IMG/VR virus record: IMGVR_UViG_3300034356_000326 | Span: 37,653 to 101,652 of that record | DNA: 64,000 nucleotides | DNA from: a virus | Strand: one strand, 5' to 3' | Shown here: one piece after another, positions 2-63,700 of the stretch | How the letters are laid out: every line of letters starts with the position of its first letter | Numbering within the stretch: position 1 is the stretch's first letter | Notes under the pieces: model-generated | Told to the model about the DNA's origin: nothing | Databases searched by the model: none | Seen by the model: only the letters and a program-made list of their open reading frames with translations | Translations under genes and position numbers: made by a program

Positions 2-3000
2 ACATTAAATAGTTTAAAGAAAGACAATAGCTCAATACATAAAGTATTTAAAGGATACTTCTTGTCAGAGTTAGCTGTTTCTAGAGAAGGTCGTAAGATT
101 GTACAAGATGAGAACGAGACTAGAAAGTCTACAGACCTGCGTTTCTTCAAGAATATATTAGGACCATCATTACATGAAGATATTGTATCATATGATCCAA
201 GCAAAGAGAAATCTCTTGAGGATGTTTACACACACTTTGAATCAAGAATAAACACTGCTATAGACGCATTTGTTAAGAAGGATATTGAGAGAAGAAAAGC
301 TGTGTATTCTAATTACAATATTCTTTCTGAAGATGAGAATGGTTTTAACTTTAATGGAGTGGAATTTGAAAAGAAAAGATCTTTAAGTGAGAATGATGTT
401 GATGTGAATATCAAGTACTTATCTGTTAACTATATGATTAATAACATAGAGTTACATAAACTTGTATACTCAGATCCATATTTCTACAAAGATGAATTGA
501 AGCGTATTAAGAGTTTTTTATCTCCACGTCAGGCTATCATATATGGTTCAGCAGGTTTAAATGCTGTAATGAATAATGTATATAATGATGACTATACAGA
601 TATTGATGATCTTGGATACACTGACTTCACAGCTGACTATTTCAAAACCATCACATTAGAGGATGTCAAAGGTGTAGCAGATGTAGAAGGATTTGCTAAA
701 GAGTATTCATCATTCACTGAAACAGATGGTGGTGGTATGATTAGTATGCAAGCATATCGCAACTTTAGAATACGTGCTTCAAATTGGAACCCTAATGAGG
801 AAAGACAATACAGATATGATGTTGCTTTTGAGAAAAGAGACAAGGGTCAGGACCTTTCTCCTAATGAATCAAATTTATTAGAAGCAGGCAATCCTCAAGT
901 AAAGAGTGCATACACTCCATTGAAACCAGTTGTAGCTGGGGCTAAGATGAGTAAACAATCTTACAATGATGTTGTATTAGATAAGTTTGCCCTTTATCCA
1001 TTGAGTTACAGAGTGTTACATGAGATTAATAAAGATTCAAATGCTATCAAGTTATACAACAAGATGCAGAAAGATAAGATTGACTACGCTGTATTTGACA
1101 GTGGTAGAAAGGTGGGGGCTGATGTATTAGTTAAATTATATGATAGCAAGGGTAACTTTAATGATGCTCCTATTGCAGATGCAGATAAGATTAATATACC
1201 ATTTAGTATTATAAGTGTACAGTCTGAGGTGCCTTCTAAGGATGAGGCTTTTGTAACAAGAGGTTCTCAGATTACCAAATTGGTAACATTAGACTTCTTA
1301 CAAGCTGGTGTACCTTTTGACTTCATGTCTGATGAGAAAGATTTTAACAAGCGTTTAGAAGCTTGGGAAAACTTAGAAGATGAAACAGCTATGGCTAATG
1401 CATCTCCATTCTTCAAAGAGATATTGGAGAACCAAGACTTACTAGAGGAAATGACTGATATTGGTTATAAAAACCTTCTTGATAGATTAGGTATTAAACA
1501 AACCAAAGCAGGATTTGAGATTGTAGATCCTGAGAAGATTGCTCAAACATTACGTTCTGAGTTATTCAAAAGAGAAGTGAATCGCAATATAGTGGCTGCA
1601 CTTGTGGGCTTTGAGAAAGGTCAAGTTTTAATTGAAGCTAGCCCTATGTACAGTCAAGTGAGAAACATTCTTTATTCTATAGTGGATAAGAACATTGTAC
1701 GTCCAAAGATTAATGGTGGATTAAAAGTACAGATTCCTTCTACAGGATTTGAATCAGTAAGACCTGTAGGAAAGAATGGATTGTTTGAGTCAGATGTATT
1801 AAAGTTTTATGAGAAAGGTGGAGAGCGTGTAGCTGAGGTGATGGTAGGAAGATGGTTTGATAGTGATATGTCTGATGAGGACTTATTAAAATATTTAAAC
1901 ACTACAGATGAAGGTCAAGCTTTATTAAAGGGTGTAGCGTTTCGTATACCTACACAGAAGCAAAACTCTGTGGATGTAATTAAGATAGCTAAGTTTCTTC
2001 CTAAGGAGTTTGGTGACTCTGTTGTTGTACCAGCTGCGTTAGTTCAGAAGGTTGGATCTGACTTTGATATAGATAAGTTATCTATGTATTTCAAGAACAT
2101 CTACAAAGGAAAAGATGGTAAGCCTAAGTTGATTCCATACTTTGGAATGGGCAAGGATGCTATCAAGAAGTTTGAAGAAATGTTTGACAAAGGAGAGTTC
2201 TTAACTAAAGAACAATTACAAGAGCTTGACAGATACATAGCAGAAGAACAAATCATGTTGGAAGACTTGATTGAAGAGAAGTCTAATGCAAGTAAGTTAA
2301 TTACAGCAATAGTTGGAAACTTAAATGGTCTTATTAATGAAGAGGAATTAACACAGGAATTTACTAGAGGTATCAAAGCTAAAGATCAAATAATCAATCT
2401 ATTATACAAGAAGTCTATTGAGAACCAATACATTCAGTCTTTAGAAAACATTATTGGAAGTGAGGCTAACTACACTAGATTAGTTACACCAAACAATGCT
2501 AAAGTGTTAAAAGATATGTCAATTGATATTACAGACAAGTTAGGTCTTGGTTCATTTGATTATTCTTCCACTGACAATATGTTGAATCAAATATTCATGT
2601 CTAGACTTAGACAGGCATTTGTACGTGGTAAATATGCAATTGGTCTTGCTGCTGTAGCTCAAACTAATCATGCTCAGAACCAACGTTCTAATATGTATGT
2701 TGATAAATCAATGATGTATAAATTAAGCAAGTCTGATCAGAAGTGGTTAGGAGATGCTAATGTTAACTTTAGCAAATATAATACAGTGAGGGTTGGTGGT
2801 AGAACAGTGCCTAGTCTTTCTGGTATTAAAGATGCTAACAATAAATATGACATATCTGATATCATTGGTCAGTTTATTGATGGATATGTGGATATTGCTA
2901 AGGGTCCTTGGATTATGGAATTAGGTGCAAGTCCTAATGTAGCTCCTACATGGTTGTTCTTAGTTAAGATTGGAGTTCCAATTAAAGAAGTTGCCTACTT

Positions 3001-38618: not shown

Positions 38619-38626
38619 CAAATTTA
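38619..38626 (-). promoter_or_regulatory. -7 element ahead of the RecA-like gene
   Basis: On the minus strand the sequence is TAAATTTG, matching TAnnTTTG, with a short leader to the RecA ATG at 38599. No good TTG is seen at the usual distance upstream, so it may be a weaker or activated promoter. Confidence 0.5.
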
Positions 38627-38660
38627 AAACTTTTTGTGCATATTTCCATCTTTTTTCATT

Positions 38661-38697
38661 AAAAAAATTAGCCCCTAATGTAGAAACACCAGGGGCT
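38661..38697 (-). terminator. Intrinsic terminator after the nrdJ/DUF5522 unit
   Basis: On the minus strand, AGCCCCT (38697-38691) pairs with AGGGGCT (38676-38670), followed by a run of T. It ends transcripts coming from the ribonucleotide reductase unit, before the RecA promoter. Confidence 0.75.
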
Positions 38698-38762
38698 GAC
38701 ACAATTAACGAAAAACAGAGATGCAAACATACGTATATACACGCATATAAACGCAAACTATT

Positions 38763-44218: not shown

Positions 44219-45688
44219 ATCAATTTTTACAATTCTCTTAGATATTTCTTGTTTAATTTCATCAAGACTCTTAACAATTGTATAAACTTCTACAGCAGAC
44301 AAAGCAGGTAAGTTGAAATCATACTTCTTAGCTTCTGCAGTGAATCCTTGCTTAGCCTTCTCAGCTAAGTTATCTAGCTCACGCACAGCATAAGACTCAT
44401 CCAACTCAAGAGTGTCAAAGTCTAAGTCATGTAAGATTTCTGTTGCTTCTTCACGTGGCACAGTCATAATTGGTAAATACTCATAGCATCTACCCTTAGA
44501 CTGACCAATACCTACCACCTTCATAGGATTGATAAGTACAAGCACGCTTGTGTCACCACAACCTACATAATGAATCTCATCACTAGTGAAGTGTAATCCT
44601 TCAGCACCACAGTCGTCAGTATTCCAACGACATGATTCCATAGGCATATCTACTGGTCTACCAATTCTGATGTCAAATGTTCTTGTGTGAGCATCTGTAT
44701 ATCTATTCTCTGCTCTATTAGGCAAATCGAGATATAGCTCAGTTAAGTTACCAATCTCTTCACCATGATCTACACGAACAAGGTCTTTGTATATTCCTTG
44801 TTCATCACACTCATAACACTGACCACTATCATCATATTCTTCATCATATTCAGGAGTTGTTCCTGAACCATCACAATAAGAACATGTAACCATTTCTTCT
44901 CTAAACATTGCGTCCATGTGAACCATTTTGTACTCACCATTTTGCAAGAAGACACTATAGTCATCTGGTTTCTTCTTCCATACAGCTTTCACTTTATTAT
45001 ATGCATTGGACACAAAGTCTACAAGTTCTGTACCTCCATGTAATGTCACTACGTTTCTCAAAGCTACAAAGAAGCCCTGTTTAGTGATACTAAAGCTATT
45101 CTTCTTCAAGAAGTTAAATAACTTATCTGCCACTTCAGCTCTAGGGTTCAAGCAACACCACATGAAGAATCTATGCAAAGCATTGAATTCATCATTGTCT
45201 GTGCCACCATGTCTACCTACCACTTCTAAGAACTCTTCCACTAGTAATGGAGGTAAGCTTCTGTTGATGCCTTTTAGATACAAAGCATTGTTTTTCATTT
45301 CAAATTGCTCAAGGGTAGCTAAATACTCAGCACCTCTTTGAATAGCTTTAGCTTTCTCATACTCAGCTTCAGCTTTTCTTTTCTCATCTCTAATCTCCTG
45401 TGTGCTAACAAGATTAATTAGACAAGCTTCTGTTCTACAGTCTCTAGCAGCATTGAAATCATCTGCTGTTGCTGGAGATTTAGTAATGATATTACCATCA
45501 TTCATTACAATAGTCAATGTATCATTAACCATTTTAATGTTTAGATAGGGCTTTCCTGAAGGATGATAAGAAGGGGCTACTTGCCCCTCCTCATTATCCA
45601 ATTCATTAAAAGCCTGCTCAATTTTGTTTTCTACTACCTTTTCAATTGTGCGTTCAATAGCACTCTTAAACCATTTTAAGCTTAACAT
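44216..45688 (-). CDS. rIIB-like protein with zinc-ribbon
   Basis: This 490-residue protein follows the rIIA-like gene by 11 bases. The segment DKLFNFLKKNSFSITKQGFFVALRNV (near residues 187-212) matches the conserved core of T4 rIIB relatives (LxxFLxxNxLPITxxGxFxAY). A CSYCDGSG...QCYECDEQG region near residue 270 looks like a four-cysteine zinc-binding motif. The N-terminus is charged coiled coil. In T4 the rII proteins influence lysis and superinfection exclusion; the role here is inferred. Confidence 0.6.
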   Translation of the reverse strand: MLSLKWFKSAIERTIEKVVENKIEQAFNELDNEEGQVAPSYHPSGKPYLNIKMVNDTLTIVMNDGNIITKSPATADDFNAARDCRTEACLINLVSTQEIRDEKRKAEAEYEKAKAIQRGAEYLATLEQFEMKNNALYLKGINRSLPPLLVEEFLEVVGRHGGTDNDEFNALHRFFMWCCLNPRAEVADKLFNFLKKNSFSITKQGFFVALRNVVTLHGGTELVDFVSNAYNKVKAVWKKKPDDYSVFLQNGEYKMVHMDAMFREEMVTCSYCDGSGTTPEYDEEYDDSGQCYECDEQGIYKDLVRVDHGEEIGNLTELYLDLPNRAENRYTDAHTRTFDIRIGRPVDMPMESCRWNTDDCGAEGLHFTSDEIHYVGCGDTSVLVLINPMKVVGIGQSKGRCYEYLPIMTVPREEATEILHDLDFDTLELDESYAVRELDNLAEKAKQGFTAEAKKYDFNLPALSAVEVYTIVKSLDEIKQEISKRIVKID

Positions 45689-48419: not shown

Positions 48420-49136
48420 TTAAAATGGTGTGTCTAATAACCAATCTATTGATAGATTGTTGTTGTCTTTTAATATTGTATTTACCTTTGTAAATACTCC
48501 TTCTGTGTCCCAATCAGTCTGCTTGTAAGAAGCACTGGCTGGATGACTTAGTGTAAAACTCCATGTGAATGGAGCAATATACTTTTGATATTTAGCTGCG
48601 TCCTTACCTAGGAAGATTACAGGTGCTCCTGTTGTTGCTAAGACTTCTTCTAACAAATACTTAGTAAAGGGTTCCCACAGATCAATGTGAGAGCCTGCTT
48701 TATTAATTTCTGTAGTCAAAGCTGCGTTATACATTAACACACCCTGCTTAGCTAGGAATGACATATCTGGTGATCTTTCACATGTTACACACAAACCACT
48801 ATAAAATTCTTTCTCTATAGCATCATAGAATTTTATTAGAGATGGTTGTAATATACCTGTTGTAGAGCAACTCATTAGAAGACCATCTGCCACATATTCT
48901 CCATTCTTTATAGAGTGATAAGGACACATACCTATCATAATCACCTTCAGCTCATCATATGGTGTCTCATAGAAACACCTATAAACATTCTGAGAGAGAG
49001 GAGCAATCTTCTTGCCCCTCTGACTTTCAGATTTGAGATATTTATAGATGTTATCACACGCTTCACTTTCAATGAAAGGTTGCATAAACCTATGCCAAGA
49101 AGGATGAAACTGATCTTTAAATTTCTCCCAATTCAT
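48420..49136 (-). CDS. Uracil-DNA glycosylase family 1 relative with altered active site
   Basis: I choose the ATG at 49136 (MNWEKFKDQFHPSW), one base from the upstream stop. The 238-residue protein follows family 1 UDG: VIMIGMCPYHS, ADGLLMSC, GVLMYNAALT and LSHPASASY. The catalytic motif GQDPYH is GMCPYH here, so Cys71 replaces the water-activating aspartate and Met70 the usual Gln. The fold and uracil pocket seem kept. The protein may be slow, binding-only, or a processivity factor rather than a normal glycosylase. Confidence 0.75.
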   Translation of the reverse strand: MNWEKFKDQFHPSWHRFMQPFIESEACDNIYKYLKSESQRGKKIAPLSQNVYRCFYETPYDELKVIMIGMCPYHSIKNGEYVADGLLMSCSTTGILQPSLIKFYDAIEKEFYSGLCVTCERSPDMSFLAKQGVLMYNAALTTEINKAGSHIDLWEPFTKYLLEEVLATTGAPVIFLGKDAAKYQKYIAPFTWSFTLSHPASASYKQTDWDTEGVFTKVNTILKDNNNLSIDWLLDTPF

Positions 49137-60519: not shown

Positions 60520-60725
60520 AAATTTATATTATATCTTTCTAATGAGATGTTCTTACAGAATCTAATCTCTTTGTTTGTTAATGTCCATATTTGTCCATCA
60601 TCCATAGCACATGTAAATAAAAGGTTATGCTCCTGGCTATAATCTATAACCAAAAAAGCATAACCTTCCATTTTATCAGATACCCTTACTATTGGTATCA
60701 TTGGATTTAATTGCAGAATCATCAT
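60516..60725 (-). CDS. Small hypothetical protein
   Basis: The 69-residue product may really start at Met9 (MIPIVRVSDKMEGYAFLVID), since the upstream part overlaps another gene. It has a strand pattern VIDYSQEHNLLFTCAMDDG. Not recognised. Confidence 0.5.
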   Translation of the reverse strand: MMILQLNPMIPIVRVSDKMEGYAFLVIDYSQEHNLLFTCAMDDGQIWTLTNKEIRFCKNISLERYNINL

Positions 60726-62667: not shown

Positions 62668-62946
62668 CTAAAGTGTGTTAGTTAATTTCTCTTGTTTATA
62701 TTCTTCCACTGCTATTTTAAGCTTCTCTCTTTGTTGATGAGCATAATCTTCAGTGACAAAACTAAGCTCCATCGTGTTATCTGTTCCTGGTTCAGAACAG
62801 CGTCCACCATACTTAAGCTTACCTAAATGTCCCCAAAAGTACATATCTCTAACCATCTCAATGGCTTCGAGTTCGTCTTCTGTCTCTCTAATAATCTTAT
62901 AACCACTCAAGTTGTTGTTGTCATCCCTAATTAGTTCTAGTTTCAT
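62668..62946 (-). CDS. Small acidic hypothetical protein
   Basis: This 92-residue protein (MKLELIRDDNNNLSGYKIIR...) has a short alpha/beta fold with DELEAIEMVRDMYFWGHLG and HQQREKLKIAVEEYKQ. It follows the structured noncoding stretch at 63058-63280. Not recognised. Confidence 0.5.
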   Translation of the reverse strand: MKLELIRDDNNNLSGYKIIRETEDELEAIEMVRDMYFWGHLGKLKYGGRCSEPGTDNTMELSFVTEDYAHQQREKLKIAVEEYKQEKLTNTL

Positions 62947-63057
62947 AATCGTGTGTTTAGAATGTGTGTGTAAAAAGCGAATATATAGCCTAATGTTGCC
63001 TCAGCTGTATATTCTTATGTGTATGTCATAACGCAACAAATAAAATCCCTCTGTACT

Positions 63058-63151
63058 CAAATGTATAATCTGTGGTTCAGGCTCATACGTCCTTTATGAT
63101 AGTCCACCCTACCTCTATGTCTAGACCATAGATTAATTGATTATACATTTG
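63058..63151 (-). ncRNA. Candidate structured RNA 1 (three-way junction)
   Basis: A perfect 13-base inverted repeat (CAAATGTATAATC at 63058-63070 with GATTATACATTTG at 63139-63151) closes a domain containing one hairpin (CTATG 63115-63119 with CATAG 63127-63131) and a composite stem (GTGG 63072-63075 with CCAC 63104-63107, then TCATA 63083-63087 with TATGA 63095-63099). These form a three-way junction. The strand is assigned from its neighbour. Together with candidate 2 it fills the gene-free stretch 62947-63297. Confidence 0.45.
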
Positions 63152-63184
63152 TCTATCCTTGGGAAATAGAAATGGTACATTAAA

Positions 63185-63280
63185 TGATTAAATAGCTGTA
63201 TTACAATTCAATTACCTCCAAGCAAATAAGCTTGATAGGACGTAATAGGTCATGCATAACCTTTTACAACTATTTAATCA
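63185..63280 (-). ncRNA. Candidate structured RNA 2 (three-way junction)
   Basis: A 16-base stem (63185-63200 with 63265-63280) is complete only in minus-strand RNA, where one pair is U-G; in the plus strand it is a mismatch. Inside are AGGTT...GACCT (63246-63262 region, again with a minus-strand wobble) and CAAGC/GCTTG (63219-63234). This again gives a three-way junction. The strand-specific wobbles favour a minus-strand RNA. Confidence 0.5.
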
Positions 63281-63297
63281 ATATAATAAAGAGCAGA

Positions 63298-63537
63298 CTA
63301 ATTGCCTGCTCCAATATCCTGAACAAAATAGAACTCACCACCATGAATGAGTCTAATACCACCATATAATATACCATCTATATGAACAAACTTATCCAAC
63401 ACACCTTGTATTGGCAATTCCATAGACTTAATACTATCAATAGAGACTTGTTCACTCTCTATAAAGAAATCATCCTTACTAATAGGACTAATGTTATTGC
63501 CAAATAATGTATAGGCAAGTTGTTGTGCGTTATTCAT
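63298..63537 (-). CDS. Small hypothetical protein
   Basis: The 79-residue product (MNNAQQLAYTLFGNNISPIS...) has IPLQ-type strands (MELPIQGVLDKFVHIDGILYGGIRLIHG) and ends FVQDIGAGN. It precedes the structured noncoding region in the direction of transcription. Not recognised. Confidence 0.5.
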   Translation of the reverse strand: MNNAQQLAYTLFGNNISPISKDDFFIESEQVSIDSIKSMELPIQGVLDKFVHIDGILYGGIRLIHGGEFYFVQDIGAGN

Positions 63538-63700
63538 ATAAATGCTATTTAATGCTATATATATTGTATTGTATAGCGTGAATTAATGTATCTTGAAAAG
63601 ATAGCTAAAAGGGCCTATTAAGCACACACCTCTTCAAACATTCACACGAAATATATTGATTATCAGTGTGTTATATTGTCTGAAGTCTTGATGTTGTATA

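Follow-up and report, generated by a model that had tools for sequence, protein, structure and literature searches.

A covarying pseudoknotted three-way-junction RNA with exchangeable inserts in uncultivated relatives of crAssphage

Flavivirus-type xrRNAs are three-way junctions in which the stretch immediately 3′ of the closing helix base-pairs with a hairpin loop, and integron attC sites have conserved ends and a variable middle. The RNA element described here, which we call E1, shares traits with both. E1 resembles xrRNAs in having a three-way junction and a loop-tail pairing; however, its tail pairs with the first hairpin (P2) and that of xrRNAs with the second, the sequences are unrelated, E1 comes from phages of bacteria whereas xrRNAs come from RNA viruses, and nuclease resistance of E1 is hypothetical. 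E1 has the conserved ends, the variable middle and an adjoining small ORF in common with attC sites, but it is a pseudoknotted three-way junction, co-directional with its neighbours, usually single-copy and free of a cassette array. The hatchet (RF02678), pistol and twister-sister ribozymes resemble E1 in their small size, their pseudoknotted or multi-helix folds, their variable peripheral stems and their location in phage intergenic regions; hatchet differs from E1 in sequence and fold, and the self-cleavage that characterizes hatchet is putative for E1. All three ribozyme classes were discovered because they accompany phage genes and other ribozymes (PMC4604425). Orphan structured RNAs from metagenomes and phages have also been described, for example a set of 104 candidates (PMC2864571). 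E1 is similar to such motifs, including the ornate GOLLD and ROOL RNAs, in being a function-orphan RNA recognized by comparative genomics and often situated near phage tRNAs; it differs from them in lying outside Rfam 15, in its much smaller core and in the exchange of structured modules between scaffolds. E1 is a new family within a known kind, the orphan structured phage RNAs, and it is unusual in that structured cargo is swapped between RNA scaffolds.

The window analysed is a 64-kb stretch of a 101.7-kb virus record. The initial annotation had pointed to two tandem RNA structures within a long noncoding gap, which is indeed the longest internal ORF-free gap of the window (62947-63297, 351 nt) and is flanked by minus-strand ORFs of 79 and 92 aa. 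Both of the inverted repeats that it had described are present, the first with 13 of 13 pairs (63058-63070 with 63139-63151; structure 1) and the second with 15 of 16 (63185-63200 with 63265-63280; structure 2). The two inner hairpins of each structure are as described, but the centroid fold of structure 1 keeps just one of them. The 16-nt stem is unbroken in minus-strand RNA, with one G-U pair, whereas the plus strand has a C/A mismatch, in agreement with the strand asymmetry previously proposed.

Compared with dinucleotide shuffles, the minus-strand fold of structure 2 showed a z value of −5.47 (equalled by 0 of 200 shuffles) and that of structure 1 a value of −3.6 (equalled by 1 of 200), with somewhat weaker folds on the plus strand (z −4.4 and −3.3, respectively). 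By folding energy among 5112 window segments, structure 2 ranked 9 and structure 1 ranked 123, and structure 1 is unremarkable within the window by this measure alone. Since the region was only moderately exceptional by energy, the question needed to be settled by comparison. Four other minus-strand segments of the window (38626-38735, 45501-45635, 48951-49085 and 60576-60710) fold even more stably than the region described here; the second and the fourth lie inside ORFs, and the first is intergenic and terminates in a terminator-like hairpin with the loop GGUGUUUCUACA, which is also present ahead of an E1-like copy in contig L167.

Conservation of the 92-aa ORF (62668-62946, minus strand; without family match) allowed homologous gaps to be found via relatives of its product, and these were then aligned by eye. 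The conserved blocks lay just outside structure 1, with GUACCAUUUC...UUCCCAAGG...GACA on its 5′ side and UGAGUACAGAGGGAUUU on its 3′ side, the 13-bp stem being a variable arm between them. Scans of viral contigs with both conserved ends returned at least 120 stretches, and a structural descriptor identified 142 distinct E1 elements in environmental viral contigs. Among 41 trimmed cores, double compensatory changes were observed in 20 of 26 pairs, and the covariation score was 0.461 compared to 0.158 ± 0.011 in shuffled alignments; slid controls collapsed. The search behind this core set had required both P1 and P2, which inflates the percentages for these stems there and in a later helix-pair tally, and the test was therefore rerun without conditioning. 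A search with the 5′ motif only, AATGYACCA-N7/8-TTCCCAAGG, gave 145 unique matches, 139 of which had a fully paired P2 (mean after shuffling 33.6, maximum 46). In 135 of the 145 matches the 3′ motif followed within 330 nt, and in 134 of these 135 elements the variable P1 pair (Y:R) matched. The pseudoknot, too, was tested without being a search requirement: all six non-CCC P2 loops had a compensated tail (CAC:GUG three times, UCC:GGA, CCA:UGG and CCU:AGG), and a CCC loop with a non-matching tail occurred in 2 of 136 cases. The helices make use of G-U pairs. In the GTDB cellular genomes the 5′ motif matched 29 times, 28 of them lacking P2; the sole match with the E1 structure is L217, a 4.6-kb MAG contig that is probably phage. 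With compensatory changes backing each of P1, P2, P3 and the pseudoknot, we conclude that E1 is an RNA selected for structure. The initial annotation had made its proposal of a genuine structured minus-strand RNA depend on covariation in relatives, and the proposal stood, with folds that beat shuffles and very strong covariation.

In the window, E1 spans 63045-63182 on the minus strand, from U63182-AA to GGGAU63045. The covariance model R1 scored it at 80.6 bits (E 2e-17) on the window's own record, and it has about 140 distinct homologs. The 5′ strand of P1, UGUAC (63175-63179), pairs with GUACA (63052-63056), and P2 is the hairpin UCUAU-UUCCCAAGG-AUAGA (63152-63170). The 3′ strand of P1, a GA and the second pseudoknot strand occupy 63047-63056, where GGG (63047-63049) pairs with the CCC of the P2 loop (63161-63163). 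P3 occupies 63058-63151 with an inner module at 63071-63138, and all 12 of its pairs showed double-sided changes in alignment A1. The 5′ half of the consensus reads U-AA, P1 (UGYAC), CA (2-4 nt; CAUU), P2 (5 bp), the loop UU-CCC-AAGG and P2′; the 3′ half reads P3 (3 to 12 or more bp), insert, P3′, A, P1′ (GURCA), GA and GGG(A/G)U. E1 elements measure 51-234 nt, with three helices round a three-way junction, and about 20 of their unpaired or end nucleotides are nearly invariant. Their ends are sharp, and conservation is absent upstream of the 5′ boundary. Pairing of the P2 loop with the tail that immediately follows P1 means that P1 and the pseudoknot together join the two ends of the element. 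The hypervariable part is P3, sometimes together with the P2 loop, and holds structured RNA modules; as minimal forms of 51-67 nt exist, among them a 55-nt E1 in L119 (2896-2950), the P3 cargo is dispensable for the core. Judged from the aligned relatives, structure 1 (63058-63151) is the hypervariable P3 arm of this conserved RNA. It had originally been delimited as a unit by its inverted repeat, outside which the true RNA ends (63182 and 63045) lie, and the idea of a tandem duplication was not borne out, structures 1 and 2 having no sequence similarity and not being copies of each other.

The P3 inserts range from a few nucleotides to more than 150 nt, and some of them recur. Module A (55 nt) lies within P3 of four E1s (L005, L029, L072 and L092) and recurs in L303, a phage in which no E1 was detected; the strands that close it there are quite different, and its closing pair has changed from C-G to U-A. 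Module B was found inside P3 in L034 and outside E1 in two contigs, standing free behind the element in L009 and lacking E1 flanks in L340, and module C is a P2-loop insertion found in seven contexts. This account of module exchange rests on hand-checked cases; an automated count outside E1 was inflated by duplicate contigs and was not used. Since inserts recur in unrelated scaffolds, they look like structured RNAs themselves, grafted onto different stems. A recurrent P2-loop module starting GTGGATATGAAGACTTC was observed in L005 (4406-4560), L056, L167, L103, L131 and L333, in several of which it ends in AATCAGCT ahead of CCCAAGG. The window's own insert (63071-63138) had no sequence relatives beyond near-identical contigs and is unique so far.

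Structure 2 abuts E1 on its upstream side as a hairpin domain, P0 (63185-63280, minus strand), closed by the 16-pair stem. Such an arrangement is common: 51% of E1s have a stem with a score of at least 10 that stops no more than 8 nt from their start, compared to 10-15% at control offsets, and the values for strong stems are 17% and 0-2%, respectively. These upstream stems are of two sorts, either terminator-like or domains of 50-100 nt with long, unrelated closing stems. Structure 2 is one of the latter, different from structure 1 and non-conserved, and homologs of it were found only in near-identical contigs. Downstream of E1, the window lineage carries E2 (62979-63037, minus strand), a predicted H-type pseudoknot about 30 nt ahead of the 92-aa ORF, which is conserved in about 30 loci with the layout GUUGC (63037-63033), GAAUAUA (63014-63008), GCAAC (62999-62995) and UAUAUUC. 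Its covariation is weak (L033, L070) owing to the small number of sequence changes. On the other side, upstream of P0 and E1, the 79-aa ORF (63298-63537, minus strand) has no family match and has relatives only in two near-identical contigs. It is preceded by the promoter-like motif AUAUAUAGCAUUAA (63549-63562, minus strand), of which the 12-mer ATATAGCATTAA is present upstream of E1 in 34 loci; the motif, (G)AATATATATAGCATTAA at about −230 from E1, is possibly a promoter recognized by the phage or the host polymerase. In another sublineage (L155, L160, L128, L071, L069 and others) a second uncatalogued scaffold, E6, lies upstream of E1. E6 follows the pattern UACUCUCAUCCAA..CAAGGGUUGCAACCUUGUGAGAGUAC and consists of a closing stem UACUCUCA:UGAGAGUA, a hairpin CAAGG(GUUGCAA)CCUUG and a variable insert of 10-120 nt, with modest covariation; a possible pseudoknot, UUGCAG:UUGCAA, covaries in L069/L155 (UUGUAG:AUUACAG). 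Hatchet ribozymes lie in the intergenic region of E1, about 1 kb upstream of it and on its strand, in L055 (8553-8720, minus), L108 (6387-6553, plus) and L103 (5635-5767, plus), and none was found in G000. Several E1 loci have tRNAs nearby, and the E1-bearing contig L112 contains a tmRNA gene (69-403, minus strand; Rfam RF00023, 100 bits).

E1 is carried by many environmental relatives of crAssphage. A crAss-type terminase (PHROG 6681) was present in 19 of the 20 records with E1, whole or partial, that were searched; among these, only the window's own record, possibly a fragment, gave no match. The terminases belong to very different sequence groups: at one end, identity with gut crAssphages (Suoliviridae) is 43%, and at the other, identity with named phages of any kind is about 25-40%. 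Whole records usually have one E1, sometimes two or three adjacent ones. E1 and the terminase block lie on opposite strands, and the element is reached a few hundred to about 1500 nt after the start of the divergent operon; in several deep-branching records its distance to the terminase reaches about 24 kb, with the opposite orientation kept. Of 350 ORFs within 800 nt of E1, 329 were co-directional with it. The gene that often stands just before E1 has no family match and, from reading its sequence, is probably SSB-like, and the downstream side is occupied by different small genes in different phages, with no consistent gene. E1 is missing in 14 of 51 close relatives that have the region, so its function is dispensable; with position and orientation kept and presence patchy, E1 is best described as an accessory element at a conserved kind of position. 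Among 15 named crAss-like or related phages, including crAss001, phi14:2, phi4:1 and Lbo-JY46, R1 detected no credible E1, and BLASTN of E1 against phages gave chance matches only. The closest named terminase, with 40% identity to that of the window's clade, is that of Leptolyngbya phage Lbo-JY46 (PP438436.1), which has a large tRNA cluster just upstream of its terminase. Since the cultured host of Lbo-JY46 is a cyanobacterium, a Bacteroidota host should not be assumed for E1 phages.

Searches with Rfam 15 (4227 families) gave no match for the window gap, even at lax thresholds, nor for the minimal 55-nt form of E1 at E ≤ 10. E1 itself was not matched by the hatchet model RF02678 at its gathering score, and no tRNA or tmRNA was detected in the window with ARAGORN and Rfam. 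A partial search of the literature found no description of E1.

Our leading proposal, which we hold tentatively and at slightly less than even confidence, is that E1 marks a transcript boundary as a scaffold with sealed ends, where it serves to protect or process early transcripts and to present cargo. E1 would be transcribed within the polycistronic RNA of the neighbouring operon, which the analogy with crAss-like phages suggests to be early, and would form there an autonomous, end-sealed RNA domain. A transcript boundary would fall at E1, with a hairpin at the end of the upstream RNA and P1 at the start of the RNA that runs from U-AA; E1 might be the agent of any cut at this boundary, a nuclease might be, or there might be no cut. 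E1 would then shield that end, or an excised RNA, from nucleases and hold out the P3 module as a cargo that differs among phages. The covarying fold, the single copy, the sense orientation, the sharp ends, the adjoining hairpins and the exchange of cargo all speak for this scaffold. Against it stand the lack of E1 in 14 of 51 close relatives, by which its function is dispensable, and the resemblance of many upstream hairpins to ordinary intrinsic terminators. The possible role as decoy or nuclease-resistant RNA suggested by the initial annotation lies close to this mechanism.

Conservation of the unpaired core nucleotides exceeds what a passive scaffold would require, which favours catalysis or the binding of a ligand or protein. 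The main alternative to the end-sealed scaffold, which we regard as unlikely but as a serious contender, is a small self-cleaving ribozyme of a new class; its cut at the 5′ boundary, near U-AA, would free the upstream hairpin-ended RNA. The compact, pseudoknotted core of E1, made of three helices with covariation support and many invariant unpaired nucleotides would suit a ribozyme, as would the dispensable peripheral arm, the sharp 5′ boundary with an unconserved upstream side and the hatchets found about 1 kb upstream. On the other hand, hatchet was found in just 3 of the 28 loci scanned and in a single one of 20 whole records, known ribozyme models gave no match even at lax thresholds, and an RNA that only cuts would not be expected to carry recurrent, conserved cargo. 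A rather improbable further reading is modular RNA display, in which the pseudoknot-sealed E1 and the analogous E6 would present cargoes, swapped between phages, that act in trans, for example as decoys or inhibitors of host defence.

Cis-acting control and DNA-level roles fit less well than the scaffold or the ribozyme. Control of the early operon by E1 as an unprocessed RNA, through antitermination, through a leader or attenuation, or as a protein- or ligand-binding site, is rather improbable: single copy, promoter-proximal position, strict co-directionality and adjoining terminator-like hairpins agree with it, but these hairpins lie upstream and not downstream of E1, a consistent downstream gene is absent, which also makes a metabolite riboswitch unlikely, and the exchangeable cargo modules are left unexplained. 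The riboswitch candidate was rejected on this ground, the gene set downstream of E1 varying between phages. That E1 acts as folded single-stranded DNA, as a recombination or integration site or a MITE-like mobile element, seems very doubtful. Such a role would be in keeping with conserved ends and a variable middle, as in attC sites, and with modules being exchanged, and the UAA of E1 is an in-frame ORF stop in 12 of 136 cases; yet the helices use G-U pairs, the orientation follows the genes, one copy per genome is usual, and neither a cassette array nor a recombinase was noticed beside E1. Two specific forms were discarded, an attC site proper, since the multi-copy array is absent and one E1 per record is the rule, and an element always placed at a stop codon as an integron cassette, given the same 12 of 136 and the mostly single copy. 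AT-rich palindromes or ordinary terminators with no further function, a reading to which we give hardly any credence and which the AT-rich genome and the unexceptional energy of structure 1 would permit, are refuted for E1 by four helices with compensatory changes in about 140 sequences and by the lack of P2 in 28 of 29 chance motif matches in cellular genomes, although they may still explain structure 2 and the corresponding hairpins next to other E1s.

As an RNA family, E1 is well supported, lies outside Rfam and is carried by many uncultivated relatives of crAssphage, some of them with a known self-cleaving ribozyme nearby. If E1 self-cleaves, it would represent a new ribozyme class. If the display reading is true, E1 would correspond, at the RNA level, to anti-defence gene cassettes, and if E1 is a scaffold for exchangeable cargo, it would provide a new route by which phages deploy and diversify noncoding RNAs during infection.
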